Assembly: GCF_015062935.1 (NCBI RefSeq)
Contig: NZ_SUTM01000002.1
Location: forward strand, 92,252 to 156,251
Direction of reading: 5' to 3'
DNA length: 64,000 nt
Source of the DNA: Methanobrevibacter sp.
GTDB taxonomy: Archaea; Methanobacteriota; Methanobacteria; Methanobacteriales; Methanobacteriaceae
The notes beneath the pieces are model-generated. The model was not told the origin of the DNA, did not search any database, and saw nothing but the letters and a program-made list of their open reading frames with translations. Shown in pieces: positions 15,287 through 26,443 of this stretch. Numbering within the stretch: position 1 is the stretch's first letter; the number at the start of each line of letters is the position of its first letter. The position numbers and the translations under genes were made by a program.

Positions 15287-16216
15287 TTAGGAATTAAACG
15301 GTTCACGGTTGTTAATTCCTTTTAAGAATATCTCTTCCAGTTCTTCCTCGCTTGCACCATTTCTGACATATGAAATCAGCTCGACAAGATTGTCATTTCT
15401 AAGCAGGCAAGGTTTGATTTTACCGTCAGGTGTTATCCTTAATCTGGAGCAGTTTGCACAGAATGTAGCATTATCCACTGGTTTAACTACCTCGATTTCT
15501 CCACCGTCTATGTAATATTTTTTACGTCCCTGCATAAATTTACGTTCATGAACCTCATCAGCTATATCGGCCAGCTCTTTTTCGATGTCATCAAGCTTAT
15601 AGTGATAGTCGGCACTGAATTTGTCATCGTCACAGTTCTCACTTTCAATCAGTTCAATAAGCTGGAGGACAATGTCATGCTCTTTACAGAATTCAAACAT
15701 ATCATCGATTTCATTCTGATTGATGTCCTTCATTATGACCATGTTTATTTTAACAGGATACATTCCAACTTCAACTGCTTTGAGAATTCCTTTTTTGGCA
15801 TCTTCAAGATAATCCTTTTTGGTAATGAATTCAAAAGTTTCCCTGTTAAGGGTGTCCAGGCTTACATTAACTCTGTCAAGGCCTGCATCCTTAAGGTCCT
15901 GTGCATATTTTTCCATAAGAATGCCGTTTGTGGTCATTGAAATGTCCTTGAAATCAAGACTGGCTATTTTTTGAACTATCTCTACAATGTCCTTTTTAAG
16001 CAACGGTTCTCCGCCTGAAAGTCTGATTTTCTTAACGCCAAGTTTTTTAGCTATTTTACAGATGGTATACAGTTCATCAGCTGTCATTTCATCCTTGGAT
16101 TTGACCATTCCGTCATGATGACAGTACAGGCAGTTTACATTGCACCTGTTTGTTAATGTGATTCTCAGTGAAACAATGGGTCTTTCATATCTGTCTGTAA
16201 CATAATCTTCAAGCAT
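15287..16216 (-). CDS. moaA: GTP 3',8-cyclase MoaA
   Basis: A protein of 309 aa, the radical-SAM enzyme for the first step of molybdopterin synthesis. The N-terminal cluster motif is [12 protein letters not shown] (CX3CX2C), then [12 protein letters not shown]. The C-terminal second cluster motif is [20 protein letters not shown]. The last residues REPFNS lack the GG tail of many bacterial MoaA proteins. GGGAGAATGATAAT precedes the ATG, overlapping the mobB stop region. Second gene of a mobB-moaA operon. Confidence 0.95.
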
Positions 16217-16220
16217 ATTA

Positions 16221-17258
16221 TCATTCTCCCACTGTAACGTTTATCTTGTTGATTTCACTGTCAATTTTAAGTGAACTGACAACTGCAAATATTGTTTCCT
16301 TTAAAATGCCCTGTGTAAATTCGTTGATTTCAACGTCATGGCCGTTGGTCTTAAGGCTGATGTGTGCATTTTCCAGTTTTTTGCCCGTGATGTCTTTTAT
16401 TTCAATATCAATCAGTTTGACATTATCTTCAGTTTTGATGGCATTGATCATTCCCTTTATGGAATTTGATACAATGTTTCTGGTAAATGCGTTGATTTCA
16501 AGATTTTCATCATTGATTAAAATTGTGCATTCAGCATCTATCGGGTTTTTTGGGGTATTTTCATTGGGGATTACGACTTCTATTTTGCCGATTTCGGAAA
16601 CGTCATACTCTTCAAGATTCAAGGTGTTTATGACTCCGACAAGACTTTGTTTTATGTAATCGCTGACAAATCTGTTAAGACCTACAACTTTACCGTCTAT
16701 TGATAAATAGCTTTTTACATTATCCAAATCGTCTACACTTAAATTTCCATTTCTTATTTCACTTGCAATGACTTCTCCATTGTTGAATCCACAGTTATTT
16801 GCAAATAATGTGTCAACTATGTCATGACCTCTCTGTTCTATTAAATCTGCAAGTTCGCTGACTCCCTTATCATCTATGGTAAAAGAGTCAACCTCTTTTA
16901 TTGTGTATTCATCCCTTACGTTAGGTGAAGTTATGATTTTAGGGTAGTTGTAACTTTTGTATCCTTCAATGATTACAAAGTCAAAATCGTCAAAGTGTTT
17001 TAGCAGGTATAATATCCTGTTTAAGTCGTGTTCTTTTCTTGCATTAAAAAAAGTTGTTGACCCAACACCTACAACCAGATTGGCTCCGGCCTGTTTATGT
17101 TTCCAGGTGTCTGTATTTTCTTTGTCCATTTCTATTGAATGGTGTGAATGCTTGATTGAGGCTACGTTGTATCCTCTTTTGGTTAGCTCTTCGATAACTT
17201 TAACAGTTAGCGATGTCTTTCCTGTATTTTTCTTCCCGACAATAGATACTATTTTCAT
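16221..17258 (-). CDS. mobB: MobB-like molybdopterin guanine dinucleotide GTPase with repeat domain
   Basis: A protein of 345 aa. The N-terminal ~165 residues are a MobB GTPase with P-loop [15 protein letters not shown], the switch-like [20 protein letters not shown] and [13 protein letters not shown], which in bacteria helps attach GMP to molybdopterin. The C-terminal ~145 residues hold three units of one pattern, each with a short strand then a helix: [38 protein letters not shown] and [19 protein letters not shown]. This triple repeat is absent from the bacterial protein. First gene of the operon, with GGGGAG before the ATG. Transcribed divergently from the fwd operon. Confidence 0.88.
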
Positions 17259-17318: not shown

Positions 17319-17335
17319 TGTGTAGTTACTACACA
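17319..17335. promoter_or_regulatory. TGTGTAG dyad 1 (mobB side)
   Basis: TGTGTAGTTACTACACA, a perfect 7-bp inverted repeat with a 3-base centre, 61 bp upstream of mobB. It could serve mobB-moaA, or both directions. Confidence 0.55.
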
Positions 17336-17353
17336 TTTTAGGTTAACCTAAAA
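17336..17353. promoter_or_regulatory. Perfect palindrome TTTTAGGTTAACCTAAAA
   Basis: A fully self-complementary 18-mer immediately next to dyad 1, nearly repeated upstream of fdhC at 10422. A candidate binding site for a regulator common to both operons. Confidence 0.5.
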
Positions 17354-17564
17354 ATTTAGGTCATTTTTCACTGTTTTTGTAATACTTTTTACATCGATTG
17401 ATATTATTTTCACAACGATTTTTTTTAAAAATTTAAAGATTTCTCAAAACATATTTACCTAATTATTCTTCTACACTTTAAAAATTATATCTGTTAAAAA
17501 TAAATAAGGTTTACTGATTCTGTTTGCTTAATACTCTTTTTATATTAATTTTTGAAAAAATTTT

Positions 17565-17581
17565 TGTGTAGTTATCCCACA
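17565..17581. promoter_or_regulatory. TGTGTAG dyad 2 (degenerate right arm)
   Basis: TGTGTAGTTATCCCACA matches dyad 1 throughout the left arm and centre, with two changes in the right arm. Located about 40 bp upstream of the fwd TATA box. Confidence 0.45.
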
Positions 17582-17586
17582 GTAAT

Positions 17587-17608
17587 ATTTAAGTCTTTCG
17601 ACTTAAAT
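17587..17608. promoter_or_regulatory. Inverted repeat ATTTAAGTC-TTTC-GACTTAAAT
   Basis: Perfect 9-bp arms, located between dyad 2 and the fwd TATA box. It may be a further operator. It lies upstream of the expected transcript start, so it is not an RNA hairpin of fwd. Confidence 0.4.
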
Positions 17609-17620
17609 CTAGTAGGCAAC

Positions 17621-17632
17621 TATATTTATATA
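17621..17632 (+). promoter_or_regulatory. fwd operon TATA box
   Basis: TATATTTATATA, preceded by GGCAAC. It predicts transcription starting near 17650-17656, inside dyad 3. Confidence 0.6.
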
Positions 17633-17641
17633 AGAAAACAT

Positions 17642-17660
17642 ATGTGTTATCATTACACAT
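17642..17660. promoter_or_regulatory. TGTGT dyad 3 over the fwd transcript start
   Basis: ATGTGTTATCATTACACAT, a 19-bp dyad of the same family, placed directly after the TATA box and before the ribosome binding site GGTGATT of the HTH-ferredoxin gene. The position suits repression, perhaps by that first gene product. Confidence 0.55.
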
Positions 17661-17672
17661 TGGTGATTTTAA

Positions 17673-18131
17673 ATGCCGAAACATATTGCATCTGGTCTTA
17701 AATATTTGGCTGCGGTCAAGTTGAAAGATGAGGGTAAAAGTCATCAGGCAATTGCCGATGAGTTAGGCGTTGATAGATCTACCATATCTCACTATCTGAA
17801 TGGTAGAAACCTGTCTTGGAACTCAATTGACGTTGCAAGAACAATCATCGAGCTGTGCCCTCCAGATTTCCTGAAAATGGCGGAGGCAATATTTGAGGAA
17901 CCAGAACAGAGTCGTAAAATTGTGAGTATTTGCAGAGAAAGAGATTTCGAAGTAATTATAGAAGATTCTTGTATTGGTTGCGGTTTATGTGTAAATGCAT
18001 GTACAATGAAAGCTATTAAATTAGAATCATTGCAAGCGCATGCAGACTCCATGCAATGTTGTGGTTGTCAGCTGTGTAGCGAAGATTGCCCAACGAATTC
18101 TATAAAAATTTTGGAGATTGAATATGATTAG
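17673..18131 (+). CDS. HTH-ferredoxin fusion protein leading the fwd operon (FwdH position)
   Basis: A protein of 152 aa. Residues ~8-50 are a clear helix-turn-helix (KLKDEGKSHQAIADELGVDRSTISHYLNG). Residues ~95-150 are a two-cluster ferredoxin with CIGCGLCVNAC and CCGCQLCSEDCP. It occupies the place of fwdH in the fwdHFGDACB operon of Methanothermobacter. The combination suggests an iron-sulfur-dependent transcription regulator of the operon, possibly sensing redox state or cluster supply, rather than only an electron carrier. The last 8 bases overlap the fwdF start. GGTGATTTTAA precedes the ATG. The DNA-binding role is inferred from the fold and the dyads upstream. Confidence 0.8.
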   Translation: MPKHIASGLKYLAAVKLKDEGKSHQAIADELGVDRSTISHYLNGRNLSWNSIDVARTIIELCPPDFLKMAEAIFEEPEQSRKIVSICRERDFEVIIEDSCIGCGLCVNACTMKAIKLESLQAHADSMQCCGCQLCSEDCPTNSIKILEIEYD

Positions 18132-19221
18132 AAATTTAAAAGAGGTTAAAGACAACAACTTTGACATCACAAGATCTGCTGAAGAAGTTAGAAACTTGTC
18201 TTTCAATGACCACACCTGTTTAGGTTGTGGAATTTGTGAATCCACTTGTCCTGTTGAAGCGATTACCTTAAACGCAATCGCTGTCGACGCACGTCACAGA
18301 GTATTCAATGACGTTTACTTCAGTGGTCACGAAAAGATTGCTCAAAACTTCAAAGAAGATTTCGATGTTCAAAGAATAAGCATTGACGAAAGTAAATGTG
18401 TATTATGTGGTATGTGCAGTGGATTATGTCCAGTTGATGCCTTAGTATTAACTATCGATGGCGTACCTATCAAAGAAATTGAAGCATATCCTCATTACAA
18501 CGCTTTCTCAGAAATCGATGATGATGAATGTATTTACTGTAAAAGATGTGAAACTGCATGTCCTCGTGATGCAATTGTCATTGAAAGAGTTTTACCAAAC
18601 CGTGCTGACTTAGTAACTGGTGAAATTAACGTAAATGATGAAGAATGTATTTACTGTGGAGTATGTCAAGAATTATGTCCTGCAGAAGCAATTGTTGTAG
18701 ATCAAGAAACAGGAAAAGAATCCATTGTTATTGATAAAGACAAATGTGTATACTGTCTCGTATGTAAAAAAGCTTGTCCTACCAACGCTATTAAAGCAAT
18801 TTGTAGAGCATGTAACTACGGTGAATATGACTTAGATCCTTCCAATGCAGTTGTAAAAGGAAATTCAGTTATTGATTCTGATCTTTGTGTATTCTGCGGT
18901 TGGTGTGAAGGCGTATGTCCAACTGACGCAGCAAAACATAAAAAACCATTCCAAGGTTCTATTGAAATTGATGACGACAAATGTCAAGCTTGTGGAGCTT
19001 GTGTAGATATTTGTGGATGTAACGCATTAGCATTTCCAGTATCCTCAGGTCCTGGTTCTAGAATGGAACATGTAATTGCTTACAATGATTACTGTGTAAA
19101 ATGTAAAGCATGTGCTAACGCATGTCCTAACGGTGCAATTACTGTAAAAAGAACTGAAATTGACCACACACCTATTAGCTCAACTACTTGGAAAGAAGCT
19201 TTAGACGCAATTAAAGACTAG
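18124..19221 (+). CDS. fwdF: Formylmethanofuran dehydrogenase polyferredoxin FwdF
   Basis: A protein of 365 aa with eight ferredoxin cluster motifs of the CX2CX2CX3C type, from CLGCGICESTCP through CVLCGMCSGLCP, CIYCKRCETACP, CIYCGVCQELCP, CVYCLVCKKACP, CVFCGWCEGVCP and CQACGACVDICG to CVKCKACANACP. It wires electrons through the formylmethanofuran dehydrogenase complex and on toward heterodisulfide reductase. The ATG at 18124 follows GGAGATTGAAT. The in-frame TTG at 18118 is closer to that site and less likely. It overlaps the preceding gene by 8 bases. Confidence 0.95.
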   Translation: MIRNLKEVKDNNFDITRSAEEVRNLSFNDHTCLGCGICESTCPVEAITLNAIAVDARHRVFNDVYFSGHEKIAQNFKEDFDVQRISIDESKCVLCGMCSGLCPVDALVLTIDGVPIKEIEAYPHYNAFSEIDDDECIYCKRCETACPRDAIVIERVLPNRADLVTGEINVNDEECIYCGVCQELCPAEAIVVDQETGKESIVIDKDKCVYCLVCKKACPTNAIKAICRACNYGEYDLDPSNAVVKGNSVIDSDLCVFCGWCEGVCPTDAAKHKKPFQGSIEIDDDKCQACGACVDICGCNALAFPVSSGPGSRMEHVIAYNDYCVKCKACANACPNGAITVKRTEIDHTPISSTTWKEALDAIKD

Positions 19222-19229
19222 GTGATTAG

Positions 19230-19460
19230 ATGGAACTTAAAGTTAATCAAGATAATTGTTTAGGATGCGGGATTTGTGTTATTGCTTGTCCTGTAAATGC
19301 AGCTATCAGTCCAGAAAATGCTGGTGGTAATGGTGCAAAGACTGAAGAAGTTATTATGATGGTAGAAAACGGATTTATCAAACTTTTCAGTCCTGAAAAA
19401 TGTGAAGAATGTGGAACATGTCAAATGTTTTGTCCAGTAAATGCTATATGGTTAGAATAG
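19230..19460 (+). CDS. fwdG: Formylmethanofuran dehydrogenase ferredoxin subunit FwdG
   Basis: A protein of 76 aa, a two-cluster ferredoxin with CLGCGICVIACP and CEECGTCQMFCP, the small electron-transfer subunit of the Fwd complex. The length fits the family (about 80 aa). GGTGATTAG, overlapping the fwdF stop, is its ribosome binding site. Confidence 0.93.
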   Translation: MELKVNQDNCLGCGICVIACPVNAAISPENAGGNGAKTEEVIMMVENGFIKLFSPEKCEECGTCQMFCPVNAIWLE

Positions 19461-19472
19461 GGGGATTATTAT

Positions 19473-20042
19473 ATGCATTATGCTAATACTTATTTAGAAA
19501 AACCTGTAGTACCAGATGTAAAAATTACTGGTGAAGGAACAACTGACGTACTTAAATGTATGTTAAACACCGGATCTGACATCTACCAAGGTGCTTGTAA
19601 AAAAAGAGGATCCACTTTAAAAGAAGAATACAAAAACGCTTCAGGTACTTGTTACATGGATCCTAGAGATATGGCAAAATTAGGTGTAAACAACTGGGAT
19701 ACTGTACTTGTAAAAACTGATTTCGGTGAAGTAGTAGTAAACTGTGCAGTATCAAGAGACGCACCTCACGAAGGAACTGTATTCATTTGTAAAGGACCAT
19801 GGGCTAACACTATCGTAAGTCACGATACTTACTGCTGTTCTGACCCTACCTACAAAGGAATCAAATGTACTGTCGAAAAAACCGACAGAAAAGTATTACT
19901 CATGGCTGACTTAATGAGATGGGTATACAAAAAATACGTTGATGAAGAAGATGACGATGTTGTTGAAAACATGGAATCTTTAGGTGAATTACCTGTTTAT
20001 CACGGACGTAAATGGGAGGAGTTGATTGACCATGACTTATGA
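19473..20042 (+). CDS. fwdD: Formylmethanofuran dehydrogenase subunit D
   Basis: A protein of 189 aa. This is the molybdopterin-dinucleotide-binding domain which in other enzymes is the C-terminal part of the catalytic chain (compare FdhA). Signs are the [11 protein letters not shown] strand and the [19 protein letters not shown] segment that contacts the pterin. It overlaps fwdB, so translation is probably coupled. GGGGGATTATTAT precedes the ATG. Confidence 0.92.
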
Positions 20043-21408
20043 ACCACCTGTAACTGATTATGATTACATTGTTGAAAATTGTACCTGTGCATTCTGTGGT
20101 TGTAACTGTGACGATTTAGATTACTTAGTAAAAGATAATCACGTAGTTGCTGTAAGACACGCATGCAGATTAGGAGCAAGTAAAATTATGGAAGATATGG
20201 ATCAAAGATTACTTGTTCCAATGATTAGGGATGAAAACGGAGAACTTATGGAAGTAGATTGGGATACCGCTTTAGACAAAGCTGCAGAATACATTGCTAA
20301 TTCCATCAGACCTGTATTCTACGGATGGTCTGAAACTTCTACCGAATGTATGAAAGAAGGAGTAGCATTAGGTGAATACATTGGTGCAGTATTAGATAAC
20401 CAAGCTACTATCTGTCACGGTCCTTCTCTCCAAGCTGTACAAAACGCAGGATACCCTATTCAAACTTTAGGAGAAGTTCAAAACAGAGCAGACGTTATTG
20501 CTTACTCTGGAAGTAACGCTATGAACTCTCACCCAAGACATATGGCAAGATACGCTGTATTCTGTCGTGGATACTTCAGACAAAGAGGAAGATTCGACAG
20601 AACTGTTATCACCATGGATCCAAAATTCTCAGATACCGCAAAATGTTCTGACAAATGGATTGGATTCGAACAAAACGGAGACTACGGTTTCTACAACGCT
20701 ATTAGAGCTGTACTCAGAGGAAAAGAATTATACCAAGACGTAATTTCTGGAATTCCTAAAGAAGACATTTACGAATTAGCAGAAGAAATGAAAAACGCAG
20801 AATTCGGTGTTCTCTTCTTCGGTTTAGGTTTAACCCACACTTTATCAAAACAAAGAAACATTGATATCGCTATTAAGATGGTACAAGACTTAAACAAATA
20901 CAGTAAATGGGGACTTACTCCAATGAGAGGTCACTTTAACGTAAACGGTTTCAACATTTTCATGGCATTCGAATGTGGATTCGCTTTCGGTGTTGACTAC
21001 TGTAGAGGTTACCCAAGATATATGTTAGGAGAAACCAACACTATCGATTTATTAACCAGAAAAGAACCAGATTGTTTCATGGTTATTGCAGCTGACCCAG
21101 GTGCTCACTTCCCTAACGGAGCAAACCAACACTTAGCTAACATTCCTGTTATTCAAATCGATATTCACTGGGGCCCATCTACCGAACTCGCTGACGTAGT
21201 ATTACCAGGTTCATTCATTGGTGTAGAATGTGCTGGTACCAGTTACCGTATGGATGGAGTTCCTATCTACATGAAAAAAGCTATCGACAAACCAGAAACC
21301 TGTCGTGACGACGAATGGATTGTCCGTGAATTGAAAGAAAGAGTAATGAAACTCAGAGAAGAGCCAAACGTAGCTCCAAAATATGTGCCAAATCCAAACG
21401 CACTATAA
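20032..21408 (+). CDS. fwdB: Tungsten formylmethanofuran dehydrogenase subunit B (catalytic)
   Basis: A protein of 458 aa that reduces CO2 to formate at a tungsten bis-pterin centre. The N-terminal cluster motif is [11 protein letters not shown] with a later Cys in RHACRLG. The metal ligand is Cys128 in ATICHGPSL, in the Cys rather than selenocysteine form. GGAGGAG at 20014-20021 fits the ATG at 20032 better than the TTG at 20026. The order D-B-A-C differs from the D-A-C-B reported for Methanothermobacter, and no fused D domain is present. Confidence 0.95.
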
Positions 21409-21418
21409 AGGTGATATA

Positions 21419-23131
21419 ATGGAATATATTCTTAAAAACGGTATTGTCTACGACCCTGCTAATGAAGTAAACGGGGAAAAGATGGACGTAATGTTCAAAG
21501 ATGGTATTATTGTAGATAACGTTTCCTCCGACGCTAAAGTCTTAGATGTTACCGATAAAATAGTCATGCCAGCAGGTGTTGACCCTCACGCACACGTTGC
21601 AGGTCCTAAATTAGTAGTAGGAAGATTATACAGGCCTGAAGATTCCAGAAGAGGTGTTACTCAAAAAACTAAAGTTTTAAGATCAGAATCTGGTTTCTCC
21701 ATTCCAAGTTGTCCTGCAACCGGTTACAGATACTCAAGATTAGGTTACGGTACTGTTGTAGAAGCAGCTATGCCTCCTCTTGAAGCAAAACACACTCACG
21801 AAGAAATTGCAACTATTCCACAATTAGACATCCCAGCTTTACCATTATTCGGTAACAACTGGTTCGTAATGGAATACGCTAAAGATAATAATATTGAAGA
21901 CATTGCAGCATTTGTATCTGCATGGTTAAAAATCTCAAAAGGTTACGGTATCAAAATCGTAAACCCATGTGGAAGTGAAGCATGGGGATGGGGTATGAAC
22001 GTACACGGTGTAAACGACAAAGCTCCTTACTTTGACGTAACTTCCAAAGAAGTTATCGTTGCACTTGCAAAAGCTAACGAAATGTTAAACTTACCTCACT
22101 CTATCCACATTCACCCTAACGACTTAGGACACCCTGGTAACGTACCAACCACTATCGAAACCATGGATGCTGTTAAAGGAATCAAAAAAGGTAAAGGCGC
22201 AGCTGAAATTAGGGATCAAGTTATGCACTTAACTCACTTACAATTCCACTCCTACTTAGGAAACAGTTGGAAAGATGTAACTTCCGGTGCTGAAGAAGTC
22301 GCTAAACACTTCAACAAAGCTGACAACTTAACCTGTGATATTGGTCAAGTAACTTTCGATGAAACCACTACCATGACTGCAGACGCTCCTATGGAATACG
22401 ACTTATTCAAATTATCCGGTCTTAAATGGACCAACAAGGATATTGAATGTGAAACTGCAGCAGGTATCATCCCATGTATCTACTCCAAGAAAAGTCCTGT
22501 TAGTACCTTACAATGGGCTATCGGTCTTGAATTATTCTTGTTAATCGAAGATCCATGGAGAGTATGTTTAACCACTGACCACCCTAACGCAGGTCCATTT
22601 ACCAGATATCCTAGAATCATTTCCTGGTTAATGAGTAATGAGAAAAGACAAGACATGTGTGACAATGAAGTTCACAAATGGGTACACAAAAGAACTCTTC
22701 TCCCTACTCTTGAAAGAGAATACGATTTCTACGATATTGCAACTATTACAAGAGCTGCTCCAGCTAAAATCTACGGATTCACTGACAGAGGTGCACTCAC
22801 CCCTGGTTACAGAGCAGACATTGCAGTATACGACATAAATCCTAATGACATTGACCCATCCAAACAAGCTGATGAAATCGAAAAAGGTTTCAACGTAGCT
22901 GACTACACTATTAAAGATGGTCAAATATTAGTAAAAGATAAAGAAATTGTAAAAGTTAAAGAAAGTCAAAACATTTGGGTTAACGTAAAAGGATGGGAAC
23001 AAAACGAGCAAAAAGTTATCGACAACATTATGCCGTTCTTCACCCAATACTACTCAGTTAAATGGGAAAACTATCCAGTACACGACCACTATGTATCAAA
23101 CCCAATTAGAGTAGACGTTGACGGTAAATAG
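21419..23131 (+). CDS. fwdA: Formylmethanofuran dehydrogenase subunit A (amidohydrolase)
   Basis: A protein of 570 aa. Zinc amidohydrolase that condenses formate with methanofuran. Metal-site signs are PHAHVAGPK near residue 56, a lysine region [38 protein letters not shown] and [10 protein letters not shown]. The ATG at 21419 has GGTGAT three bases upstream. The longer frame from 21383 is part of the fwdB 3' end. Coordinated with FwdB through an internal formate tunnel in the known structure. Confidence 0.96.
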
Positions 23132-23142
23132 GGGTGTTTAAT

Positions 23143-24009
23143 TTGAAAACAATTACATTTGATCAAATCAAAACTTCATCAATCGCATTAGAATTTGATG
23201 AATTAATTCCTGATGAAATTTACTCATGGACCGAAGCAGATTTCGCTAAATATCAAGTTCCTATTGGAAATTCCAGATTCCCAATCACTGACTTCTTCGA
23301 CATCACTGTAGAAGGAGAAGCTAACGGGCCTGAAGAAGTTGAAATGATTTTAAACGGTGACTTAAACAGAGTAAAATACATCGGTTGTAAAATGAGCGCT
23401 GGAAACATTGTCTGTAACAGTAGTGTAGATTTACACGTAGGTGCAGAAATGTCCGGTGGATCTATTCTCGTTAAAGGTGACGCAGCTGCTCACGCTGGAA
23501 GAGAAATGTCTGGTGGATACCTTGAAATCGAAGGAAATACCAAAGAATTTACTGGTGCTTCTTACATCGGTGAATGGAGAGGTATGACCGGAGGACAAAT
23601 TGTTGTTGGCGGTAACGCTGGTAAACAATGTGGTGAATGTTTAACTGGTGGAAGAATTCACGTTAAAGGTAACTGTGATATCTTAGCTGGTATTCACATG
23701 ACCAAAGGTCTTATCGAAATTGACGGTGACGTAAACCGTTGGCCGGGTGGTCAAATGAAAAACGGTAACATTGTCATCCACGGATTCCTCGGTAGATTAC
23801 TCGAAGGATTCGTTCTCGACGGTGTTGTCGTAGATCCTGAAGTAGAAGGAACCACTTTCAAAGGAAAATATATTCACTACACTGGAGATATTGGTCTTAA
23901 CGGTAAAGGTAACCTTTACTTAGACGCTGAAGCTAACAAAGAAAAATTAGCTGAATACGGAGAAATTGACGACGAATATACTTCAATCAGAGAATACAGG
24001 AATTTATAA
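23143..24009 (+). CDS. fwdC: Formylmethanofuran dehydrogenase subunit C
   Basis: A protein of 288 aa with a beta-helical structural subunit related to the C-terminal domain of glutamate synthase. It shows the expected Gly-rich repeats: [45 protein letters not shown] and [11 protein letters not shown] prefer the TTG start at 23143 ([10 protein letters not shown]), which has GGGGTG seven bases upstream. The GTG at 23134 lies inside that site. Last gene of the fwd operon, followed by a T-rich terminator-like stretch. Confidence 0.94.
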
Positions 24010-24056: not shown

Positions 24057-24347
24057 ATGGTAAAAGAAGTAGAAATGACTTTTGATGAGGTTGTAGAATA
24101 CGTTAGGAATAAAGTATATGTTGGAGATGTTTTTGAAATTTCCTATAATCGTATTTTTGCTCCAGGAGAAGTTTTAGGTCTTACTGAAGAAGATGAAGTG
24201 ACTGGAGAAGGTCTCAGAGTCGGTTTACAGTTAACCGGTGAAATTTTAAATCAGGCAGTTGAAGTTGACTTGCATGAAATTGCCGACGATTTATTAGAAA
24301 TCCGTCATATTCACGATGGCGATGAAATTATAATAGAAGTATTATAA
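24057..24347 (+). CDS. Small methanogen protein, paralog 1 (DUF2097-like)
   Basis: A protein of 96 aa, acidic, with no membrane segment and no Cys. It resembles the methanogen-restricted DUF2097 group as I remember it, but I cannot verify this. The pattern VGDVFEISYNRIFAPGEVLG and the ending DEIIIEVL match the next gene (MHDRIEIAYDRIFAEGEVLN, VDVTVI), so the two are tandem paralogs of identical length. Function unknown. Position after fwdC and before the nitrogen regulator gives only weak clues. Confidence 0.75.
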   Translation: MVKEVEMTFDEVVEYVRNKVYVGDVFEISYNRIFAPGEVLGLTEEDEVTGEGLRVGLQLTGEILNQAVEVDLHEIADDLLEIRHIHDGDEIIIEVL

Positions 24348-24467
24348 TTCTCTTTTTTTATTTATTTTTCATATTTTATTTTTCATTGAAAATTTTTTTT
24401 GTTCGATATCATACAAACAAACTTTTATATGATGAGATTTATAATATTATGTAAGGGGTGGATTGTC

Positions 24468-24758
24468 ATGAAAGAAATAGAATTAACCACACAAGAAGCT
24501 GTAAAATATTTAAAAGAAAATGTAAAAATGCATGATAGGATCGAAATAGCTTACGATAGAATTTTTGCAGAAGGAGAAGTCTTAAACGTTGATTTTTCCG
24601 AATATTTCGGCAAACCTGGATTTAAAATGTTAGTGTCTCTTGATGAAAGTGAACTTGGTGCCACAGTTGAAATCGATGTCTATGAGGTCGAAGAGGATAT
24701 AATCGAGTTTATCCATTATCCGAAAGATGGTGAAGCTGTGGATGTTACTGTAATATAA
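24468..24758 (+). CDS. Small methanogen protein, paralog 2 (DUF2097-like)
   Basis: A protein of 96 aa. The start is the ATG at 24468 (MKEIELTTQEAVKYL) with GGGGTGGATTGTC upstream. The longer frame from 24399 runs through the promoter region, where TTTTATATGATG (24423) looks like a TATA element, so this gene probably has its own promoter. Same length and core pattern as the gene at 24057, about 40 % identical by eye. It is convergent with nrpR, the stops lying two bases apart. Confidence 0.75.
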   Translation: MKEIELTTQEAVKYLKENVKMHDRIEIAYDRIFAEGEVLNVDFSEYFGKPGFKMLVSLDESELGATVEIDVYEVEEDIIEFIHYPKDGEAVDVTVI

Positions 24759-24760
24759 TA

Positions 24761-26443
24761 TTACAGTCTATCCATATTTTCAAAAGGCATCAGCTGCTCA
24801 ATTGCTTTGACATGTATGTCAACACCACGTTCTCTGACTGCTGCAATTGAGTTCAAACCGCTTCCGGCAACGACACCGAAATTATAGTTTTCCGCCTTTG
24901 CATTGTAGGTAACCTCTCTAGGTTTGCCTATTTTATAGATTGAAAAACCAATTTTATCTAATGTGTCCAGTAAATCCACTGCATATTCACGTGCGATATA
25001 GGGGATCTCTTTAAAACTGGCCAATATCTTATTCGGACCGAAATTTCCGCTGATTGAAGTCATATTTTTTGCAATGAATATCTTATGGGGATCAACAGTG
25101 GAACCGTTGTATGAAATCAGCTCTATGAATAGTGGAGGTTCTGTAAGTTCTAGCAATCCTCCATATTTCGGATTTGACATAATTCCATTGTTTATCAACA
25201 GTCCGTCTATACTCAAACTGCATATTGTAGCTATTCCAACCATGTTATCGTCGCTCGGATGATTTACAATCTTGTAATATGGGTTTATGTATTTTGGATT
25301 GCTGTTGTAGGTTTCTTCCATTATGCCAAGTGTTTTGTCAAGATCTTCTTTTTTAAGATAGGACACATTTGATATGATGTCTCCTTTTCTTTTTTCGATA
25401 TCGAAATTAACCTGCTGGATTAAGTTCCATGATTTTGAGAGTAAAAATGATATTTTCGGTTGCGGAGTATGTTCAACAGGTTTTAAGCCGTATTTGATTG
25501 TTGATGTGATTGGGGACAATGTATTGAAGTCTCTGATTTCTTCCGCTATTTTTATGTCAATTTCCTGACCCTGTTCCTGAATTGCACGAAACGGAGTTAT
25601 TCCTCCGACGATTGATATTCCGACCATTCCTTTAGGTACTGTAATTCCAAGTATGTCTTTTCCCTCGTCACTTATGGCTATTATTCCGCCTATTCCAATC
25701 TTGTCAAGCTTTTTGATTATTTCTATTGTCTTTTCACGGCCGATTCCAGGTATAAGTCTGAAGTTTGCAGGTATCAGTCCGTCACCTGAAGTTACCACAT
25801 CCATAACTGAGGTCCTGTTAGGTGATGAAAATGCATCCAGCGGTGTAAGGGATGTTTTCTTGTAGGATATCAGCTCTTCAAAGCGTATAGGTTTGTAGTC
25901 CTCAATTCTGAGAAGTCCTCCGTATTGAGGTTGTGCAGGAATTCCTTCATTCAAAAGTATCCCGTCAATTGTTGTACCGCATAAAGTTGTCACTTCAATT
26001 TTGCCCTTACTTTTATCTTCATTTATATTAACGTAAGGACTAACAGAAAGACCACTTTCAATAATACTTTTAAGTATATTGATTGATTCTTCATTATAAA
26101 TGGTTGATGTGTTGACAACAACATTTCCTCTTTGTGTGATATAGTTGAAGTCAGTTAAATATATCATTTCTTCAAATTTTGAATAGATGAAATCAACCTG
26201 GTCATATATCAGTCCCTTTTCCAGCTTGTCACGGCCAAGTTCGGTAATGACTCTTCCAGAATATCCCTTTCTTTCAGTGTAGCCCTTTTCATCCAAAATC
26301 TGCATGTGGTATCGAACGGCACGTTCGCCCAGGTTAAAGCCCTTTTCGTTTAGTTCATCTGCTATCAGTTTTGAACCGATTGGCTTTTCCTGCTGGCTCA
26401 ATATCCTTAAAATTTCAATCATTCGGGGTTCTGAATCTGACAT
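24761..26443 (-). CDS. nrpR: Global nitrogen regulator NrpR
   Basis: A protein of 560 aa. The N-terminal winged helix (residues ~5-70, LRILSQQEKPIGSKLIADELN and ERAVRYHMQILDEKGYTER) is followed by two tandem NrpR (DUF128) domains, each with a TTLCGTTIDGILLNEGIPAQPQYGGLL-like or TICSLSIDGLLINNG-like core. In Methanococcus NrpR represses nitrogen genes until 2-oxoglutarate releases it. It lies 39 bases downstream of glnA on the same strand, so it is probably co-transcribed with glnA and thus under its own control through the operator at 27885. GGAGCCGAAA precedes the ATG. Confidence 0.93.
   Translation of the reverse strand: MSDSEPRMIEILRILSQQEKPIGSKLIADELNEKGFNLGERAVRYHMQILDEKGYTERKGYSGRVITELGRDKLEKGLIYDQVDFIYSKFEEMIYLTDFNYITQRGNVVVNTSTIYNEESINILKSIIESGLSVSPYVNINEDKSKGKIEVTTLCGTTIDGILLNEGIPAQPQYGGLLRIEDYKPIRFEELISYKKTSLTPLDAFSSPNRTSVMDVVTSGDGLIPANFRLIPGIGREKTIEIIKKLDKIGIGGIIAISDEGKDILGITVPKGMVGISIVGGITPFRAIQEQGQEIDIKIAEEIRDFNTLSPITSTIKYGLKPVEHTPQPKISFLLSKSWNLIQQVNFDIEKRKGDIISNVSYLKKEDLDKTLGIMEETYNSNPKYINPYYKIVNHPSDDNMVGIATICSLSIDGLLINNGIMSNPKYGGLLELTEPPLFIELISYNGSTVDPHKIFIAKNMTSISGNFGPNKILASFKEIPYIAREYAVDLLDTLDKIGFSIYKIGKPREVTYNAKAENYNFGVVAGSGLNSIAAVRERGVDIHVKAIEQLMPFENMDRL

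Follow-up and report, generated by a model that had tools for sequence, protein, structure and literature searches.

Three dyads between mobB and the fwd operon

Here we find that three copies of the dyad TGTGTA-N5-TACACA, located between mobB and the fwd operon in a stretch of Methanobrevibacter DNA that was analysed at its full length of 64,000 nucleotides (the window), are real and kept throughout almost all of the class Methanobacteria. Comparison among genomes makes it reasonably likely that these dyads, D1 to D3, are the operators of FwdH, the HTH-ferredoxin protein that the operon itself encodes. The features of the region are as follows.

15287-16216, minus strand: moaA, molybdopterin-cofactor gene, left of mobB
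16221-17258, minus strand: mobB, divergent molybdopterin-cofactor gene
17319-17335, no strand: D1, perfect 17-bp dyad TGTGTAGTTACTACACA, 0 mismatches to TGTGTA-N5-TACACA
17565-17581, no strand: D2, dyad TGTGTAGTTATCCCACA, 2 mismatches, directly 5' of the distal TATA-like box
17584-17592, plus strand: distal TATA-like box AATATTTAA, TATATAA in most relatives
17609-17616, plus strand: conserved CTAGTAGG, about 24 nt 3' of the distal TATA-like box
17621-17634, plus strand: proximal TATA box region TATATTTATATAAG
17643-17659, no strand: D3, dyad TGTGTTATCATTACACA, 1 mismatch, over the expected start of the proximal promoter
17662-17667, plus strand: probable ribosome-binding site of fwdH, GGTGAT
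17673-18131, plus strand: fwdH, HTH + 2[4Fe-4S] ferredoxin protein of 152 aa, candidate regulator
18124-24009, plus strand: fwdF-G-D-B-A-C, downstream operon; FwdF scores above the NCBIfam cut-off and the rest are named by similarity to the known operon

All three dyads of the original prediction were recovered with their common pattern, and D1 is indeed perfect, but D3 starts at 17643 and not at 17642, the latter being the A that precedes it. A pattern search of the 2.5-Mb genome to which the window belongs returned a single perfect copy of TGTGTA-N5-TACACA, which is D1. Together, D1 to D3 are three sites with at most two mismatches inside 341 bp, and such triples are expected by chance about 0.004 times, as estimated from 75 sites per 2.5 Mb. 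The loose motif showed no enrichment, either in the window with three mismatches allowed (19 found, 34 expected) or in the genome with two (75 sites, 115 for the reversed control). Motif counts alone are therefore weak evidence, and we did not take them as proof; the cluster of three dyads stands out, and the decisive evidence is conservation. The other one-mismatch sites of this genome fall in ORFs or at an ORF start, except for a site at hdrA.

The palindrome TTTAAGTC-TTTC-GACTTAAA adjoining D2 was considered as a further element and rejected, as it is not conserved. Two other symmetric elements were observed near D1. An AGG-N4-CCT palindrome adjoins it at 17341-17350 and is conserved in 18 of 30 Methanobrevibacter. 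The inverted repeat GTAATAC-N14/15-GTATTAC at 17380-17406, 44 nt 3' of D1, occurs strictly in 11 of 30 Methanobrevibacter and in 0.8% of shuffles, and resembles a second operator with NikR-like spacing.

Conservation and genome-wide specificity of the motif

Phylogenetic footprinting, proposed with the original prediction as a check, found the dyads kept 5' of orthologous fwd operons far outside Methanobrevibacter. Among the 72 named FwdH loci with enough upstream sequence that made up the footprinting set, D2 was present in 71, about 105 nt 5' of fwdH (-100 to -114), with its TGTG and CACA nearly invariant. The full D3 was found in 47 of the 72; about a third of the loci have it reduced to its right half, TACACA, which is retained almost everywhere, and the spacing between D2 and D3 is 77-79 nt wherever both score. 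D1 is perfect in most Methanobrevibacter. The exception to the D2 position is Candidatus Methanoflexus (L354 and L225 denote one locus), in which the D2-TATA-D3 block is shifted by about 190 bp yet intact, showing that the sites go with the promoter rather than with the start codon. The D2/D3 pair was also found in Methanothermobacter- and Methanothermus-like genomes, and the motif persists down to 47-56% FwdH identity. Variants include TGTGTG-N5-CACACA as D3 in one family (f2) and GTTGTAGTAACTACATA as D2 in genome G049, which we take to be Methanothermus fervidus.

Genome-wide, the motif is almost confined to fwd/mobB/hdrA. Exact TGTGTANTWACTACAYA in 23 Methanobrevibacter genomes occurred nowhere but in the fwd/mobB region, upstream of hdrA or next to FwdH-region contigs, the matches being assigned to loci partly from coordinates, and the reversed TGTGTANTWACTACAYA control gave no match in the same 23 genomes. 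Of the 26 perfect TGTGTA-N5-TACACA sites found in 24 genomes, fwd/mobB accounts for 24. The two others are TGTGTACTAAATACACA at G004:C13:51250-51266 of a Methanobrevibacter, away from fwd/mobB, and a site within a gene of an FwdH-less genome. The window's own genome was searched by pattern; for G047, presumably M. thermautotrophicus Delta H, a matrix trained on Methanobrevibacter only was run on 1.6 of 1.75 Mb. The fwd dyads ranked first and third of the 1.6 million positions, and the other high-scoring sites were mostly intragenic.

Probable additional targets at mobB-moaA and hdrA

D1 lies about 60 nt from the mobB ATG and at about -354 relative to fwdH. At loci where mobB is parted from fwdH, by a ferredoxin pair or by extra DNA, mobB has a perfect dyad to itself, at a distance from the ATG of 57-63 nt in many loci and of about 105-110 nt at other loci; fwdH retains the copy near -353. 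Since each gene keeps a copy when the two are separated, D1 is probably common to both in the window, and mobB-moaA would be a probable second target through D1. In several Methanobrevibacter (L177, L180, L181, L295), a ferredoxin gene and a FwdF-like polyferredoxin gene are inserted between mobB and fwdH; the window's genome has its ferredoxin/FwdF-like pair on a separate contig (C20), without a dyad.

In 28 of 30 Methanobrevibacter, hdrA is preceded by a TATA box with a TGTGTATTTACTACATA-like dyad directly 3' of it. We rejected the hdrA dyad as a class-wide feature, as it is present in Methanobrevibacter and a few relatives only. The window's genome also contains a duplicated 5'-end fragment of hdrA with an upstream dyad, AATGTAGTTAATACACA (G000:C7:31179-31369). 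Separately, the hdrA leader of Methanobrevibacter (L057-L086) has a conserved perfect palindrome, CTTGTACAAG, directly 5' of the ribosome-binding site GGTGA, which is also seen in other Methanobacteriaceae, as well as a conserved inverted repeat, TATCTAAT...ATTAGATA; leader regulation through these two is possible.

Autoregulation by the HTH-ferredoxin protein had been offered as the simplest reading of the dyads. Their retention with fwdH agrees with it, but the term proves too narrow, because the motif has a role at mobB-moaA too and, in Methanobrevibacter, at hdrA.

FwdH is an HTH-ferredoxin protein of Methanobacteria

The HTH-ferredoxin gene directly precedes fwdF both in the window and in G047, and thus corresponds to fwdH of Methanothermobacter. 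FwdH is catalogued as a subunit of the tungsten formylmethanofuran dehydrogenase, encoded by the first gene of fwdHFGDACB (PMC3087415). Its Pfam matches above cut-off are HTH_23 and HTH_3, and Fer4 was also matched. Two Cx2Cx2Cx3C motifs provide eight cluster cysteines, which are invariant, together with the recognition-helix residues, across 55 FwdH sequences. Relatives of FwdH turned up only in Methanobacteria, barring a few short partial matches.

The AlphaFold2 model of FwdH has a mean pLDDT of 93. Its ferredoxin half alone matches FwdF and FwdG of 5t5i and 9sw6; the HTH half has no matching chain among the solved Fwd structures, an absence that does not exclude its presence in cells. The HTH fold gave no Foldseek match below E 0.001, and by sequence the HTH matched weakly, best a designed protein at E 0.0081, with lambda cI at E about 0.1. 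Beyond the 3' end of the fwd operon lie two DUF2097 genes and a gene for the nitrogen regulator NrpR (window 24761-26443, minus strand; 24057-24758, plus strand).

Promoter layout and proposed repression by FwdH

In relatives, the elements before fwdH follow one order: D2, usually TATATA, a conserved TTTC and CTAGTAG, the proximal TATA box, and D3. TATATA typically lies 2-4 nt 3' of D2, and columns 22-27 are conserved over 71 sequences. CTAGTAGG at 17609-17616 is possibly the initiator region of a distal promoter. The layout suggests two tandem promoters with predicted start sites and one operator each. The earlier proposal that D3 covers the expected transcript start is consistent with its position, given that its centre lies about 22 nt past that of the proximal TATA box, at the predicted start. 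D3 also stands, as described, directly before the HTH-ferredoxin gene, ending at 17659 with fwdH starting at 17673.

We infer that a FwdH dimer would read the 17-bp palindrome, with TGTG-N9-CACA as its core. Bound at D2, it would overlap the TFB-recognition (BRE) region beside the distal TATA-like box, and at D3 it would cover the start of the proximal promoter and block it. With D2 on the BRE/TATA region and D3 on the start, FwdH would most simply repress its own operon, and the same repression would reach mobB-moaA via D1 and, in Methanobrevibacter, hdrA. The two [4Fe-4S] clusters may sense redox or Fe-S/W supply, one state leaving FwdH bound to DNA and the other releasing it. FwdH would thereby act in autoregulation, probably as repression tuned by cluster state.

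Another reading of the same layout is that FwdH activates from D2 by recruiting TBP/TFB, and that D3 is a feedback brake. D2 abuts the conserved TATA-like box in fixed register and is better conserved than D3, and some archaeal activators work from just 5' of BRE/TATA. However, D3 and the hdrA dyad lie at or just past the TATA box, so that a protein bound to them would be expected to obstruct RNA polymerase, and D2 would overlap the BRE; we regard activation as rather unlikely.

Regulation by FwdH may have a wider meaning. Fwd is the first enzyme of CO2 methanogenesis, and the bifurcating subunit HdrA feeds electrons to Fwd. We put forward, tentatively, that FwdH is a ferredoxin doubling as a regulator, which would read the redox state or supply of low-potential [4Fe-4S] carriers and set the levels of Fwd, of MobB-MoaA, which make its pterin cofactor, and, in Methanobrevibacter, of HdrA, forming a dedicated redox regulon at the entry to methanogenesis in the class Methanobacteria.

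Co-occurrence of the dyads with FwdH

One sister genus (g25), probably Methanosphaera, keeps fwdGDBA but lacks both FwdH and FwdF at that locus; in none of six g25 genomes was a dyad of at most two mismatches seen at fwd. The absence of the dyads from this FwdH-less genus points to co-loss, probably in one evolutionary event. FwdH is the best candidate for the binder because the dyads track its presence and absence, its HTH has invariant recognition residues, its HTH half resembles none of the solved Fwd chains, and Tfx is absent from the dyad-bearing Methanobacteriaceae tested. We counted against FwdH that the FwdH-less genus is probably a single loss and is also without FwdF, that no known structure matches the HTH fold with confidence, that D3 is half-lost in about a third of the loci, and that Fwd is described as "formed constitutively" (PMC3087415).

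The dyads could instead be operators of another regulator encoded elsewhere, FwdH being only an electron-transfer partner whose HTH serves some other purpose. Such a protein is conceivable as a more general regulator, since hdrA bears the motif in Methanobrevibacter, and the catalogued role of FwdH is that of an enzyme subunit (PMC3087415). Yet throughout the class the motif goes with fwdH, being absent at fwd when FwdH is absent, and the regulon is centred on fwdH itself, so that we consider a regulator other than FwdH unlikely.

As explanations of the dyads, RNA hairpins, terminators and chance palindromes are all very improbable. On the plus strand D1 does read as a hairpin followed by T, and the loose motif is not enriched, but D1 and D2 precede the promoter, compensatory symmetry is not in excess and the bases themselves are conserved, an Rfam search gave no credible match, and D3 moves with the promoter when the start codon shifts.

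Tfx, the reported fmdECB regulator and the sole DNA-binding protein for a formylmethanofuran dehydrogenase operon in the literature searched (PMC3087415), is hardly credible as the binder: among the genomes tested TFX_C (PF14601) matched only in G047 and G038, and was missing from the genome of the window, from nine further Methanobacteriaceae with FwdH and from G049, all of which keep D2, and none of G047's high-ranking motifs was found at tfx/fmd. For Methanobrevibacter the Tfx reading fails, barring a Tfx so diverged that the model misses it, and the absence of Tfx from the Methanobacteriaceae tested calls for a distinct fwd regulator, as the original reading implied.

Comparison with known systems

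In the literature that we searched, mostly outside subscription journals, FwdH was not found as a regulator and was listed only as a subunit. Our gene is the same by position as that of the catalogued FwdH subunit (PMC3087415), but is read here as a candidate regulator with an HTH, the half unmatched in the solved Fwd chains. Tfx of the Methanothermobacter Tfx/fmdECB system binds DNA, as is proposed for FwdH; its gene likewise adjoins a formylmethanofuran dehydrogenase operon, and it is tied to Mo/W use (PMC3087415). Unlike FwdH, it belongs to the TFX_C family, is without ferredoxin, concerns another operon and is absent from the Methanobacteriaceae tested.

MsvR is likewise methanogen-specific and binds DNA as a homodimer in a redox-sensitive manner (PMC3729527); it is modulated by cysteine residues, has no ferredoxin-fused HTH, and is set apart from FwdH by domain architecture. 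XRE/lambda-repressor-like proteins and the C-protein C.Esp1396I share weak HTH similarity with FwdH, and their dimers bind palindromes of about this length. In contrast to FwdH, they were not found to carry a ferredoxin domain, and the fold match is not significant (TM about 0.35).

No H2 sensor has been found in methanogens so far (PMC3087415). Control of the first, ferredoxin-driven step of CO2 reduction in methanogens is poorly known. With the operator conserved, the candidate regulator named and the target promoters few, it can now be tested directly, in rumen methanogens among others. FNR and IscR are HTH proteins with Fe-S clusters that can tune DNA binding. FwdH, for which cluster-dependent binding is predicted, differs from them in carrying two clusters in a ferredoxin domain behind an unrelated HTH. 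If true, the known iron-sulfur regulators would gain a new variant, an autoregulator whose HTH is fused to a ferredoxin and whose operator is conserved.
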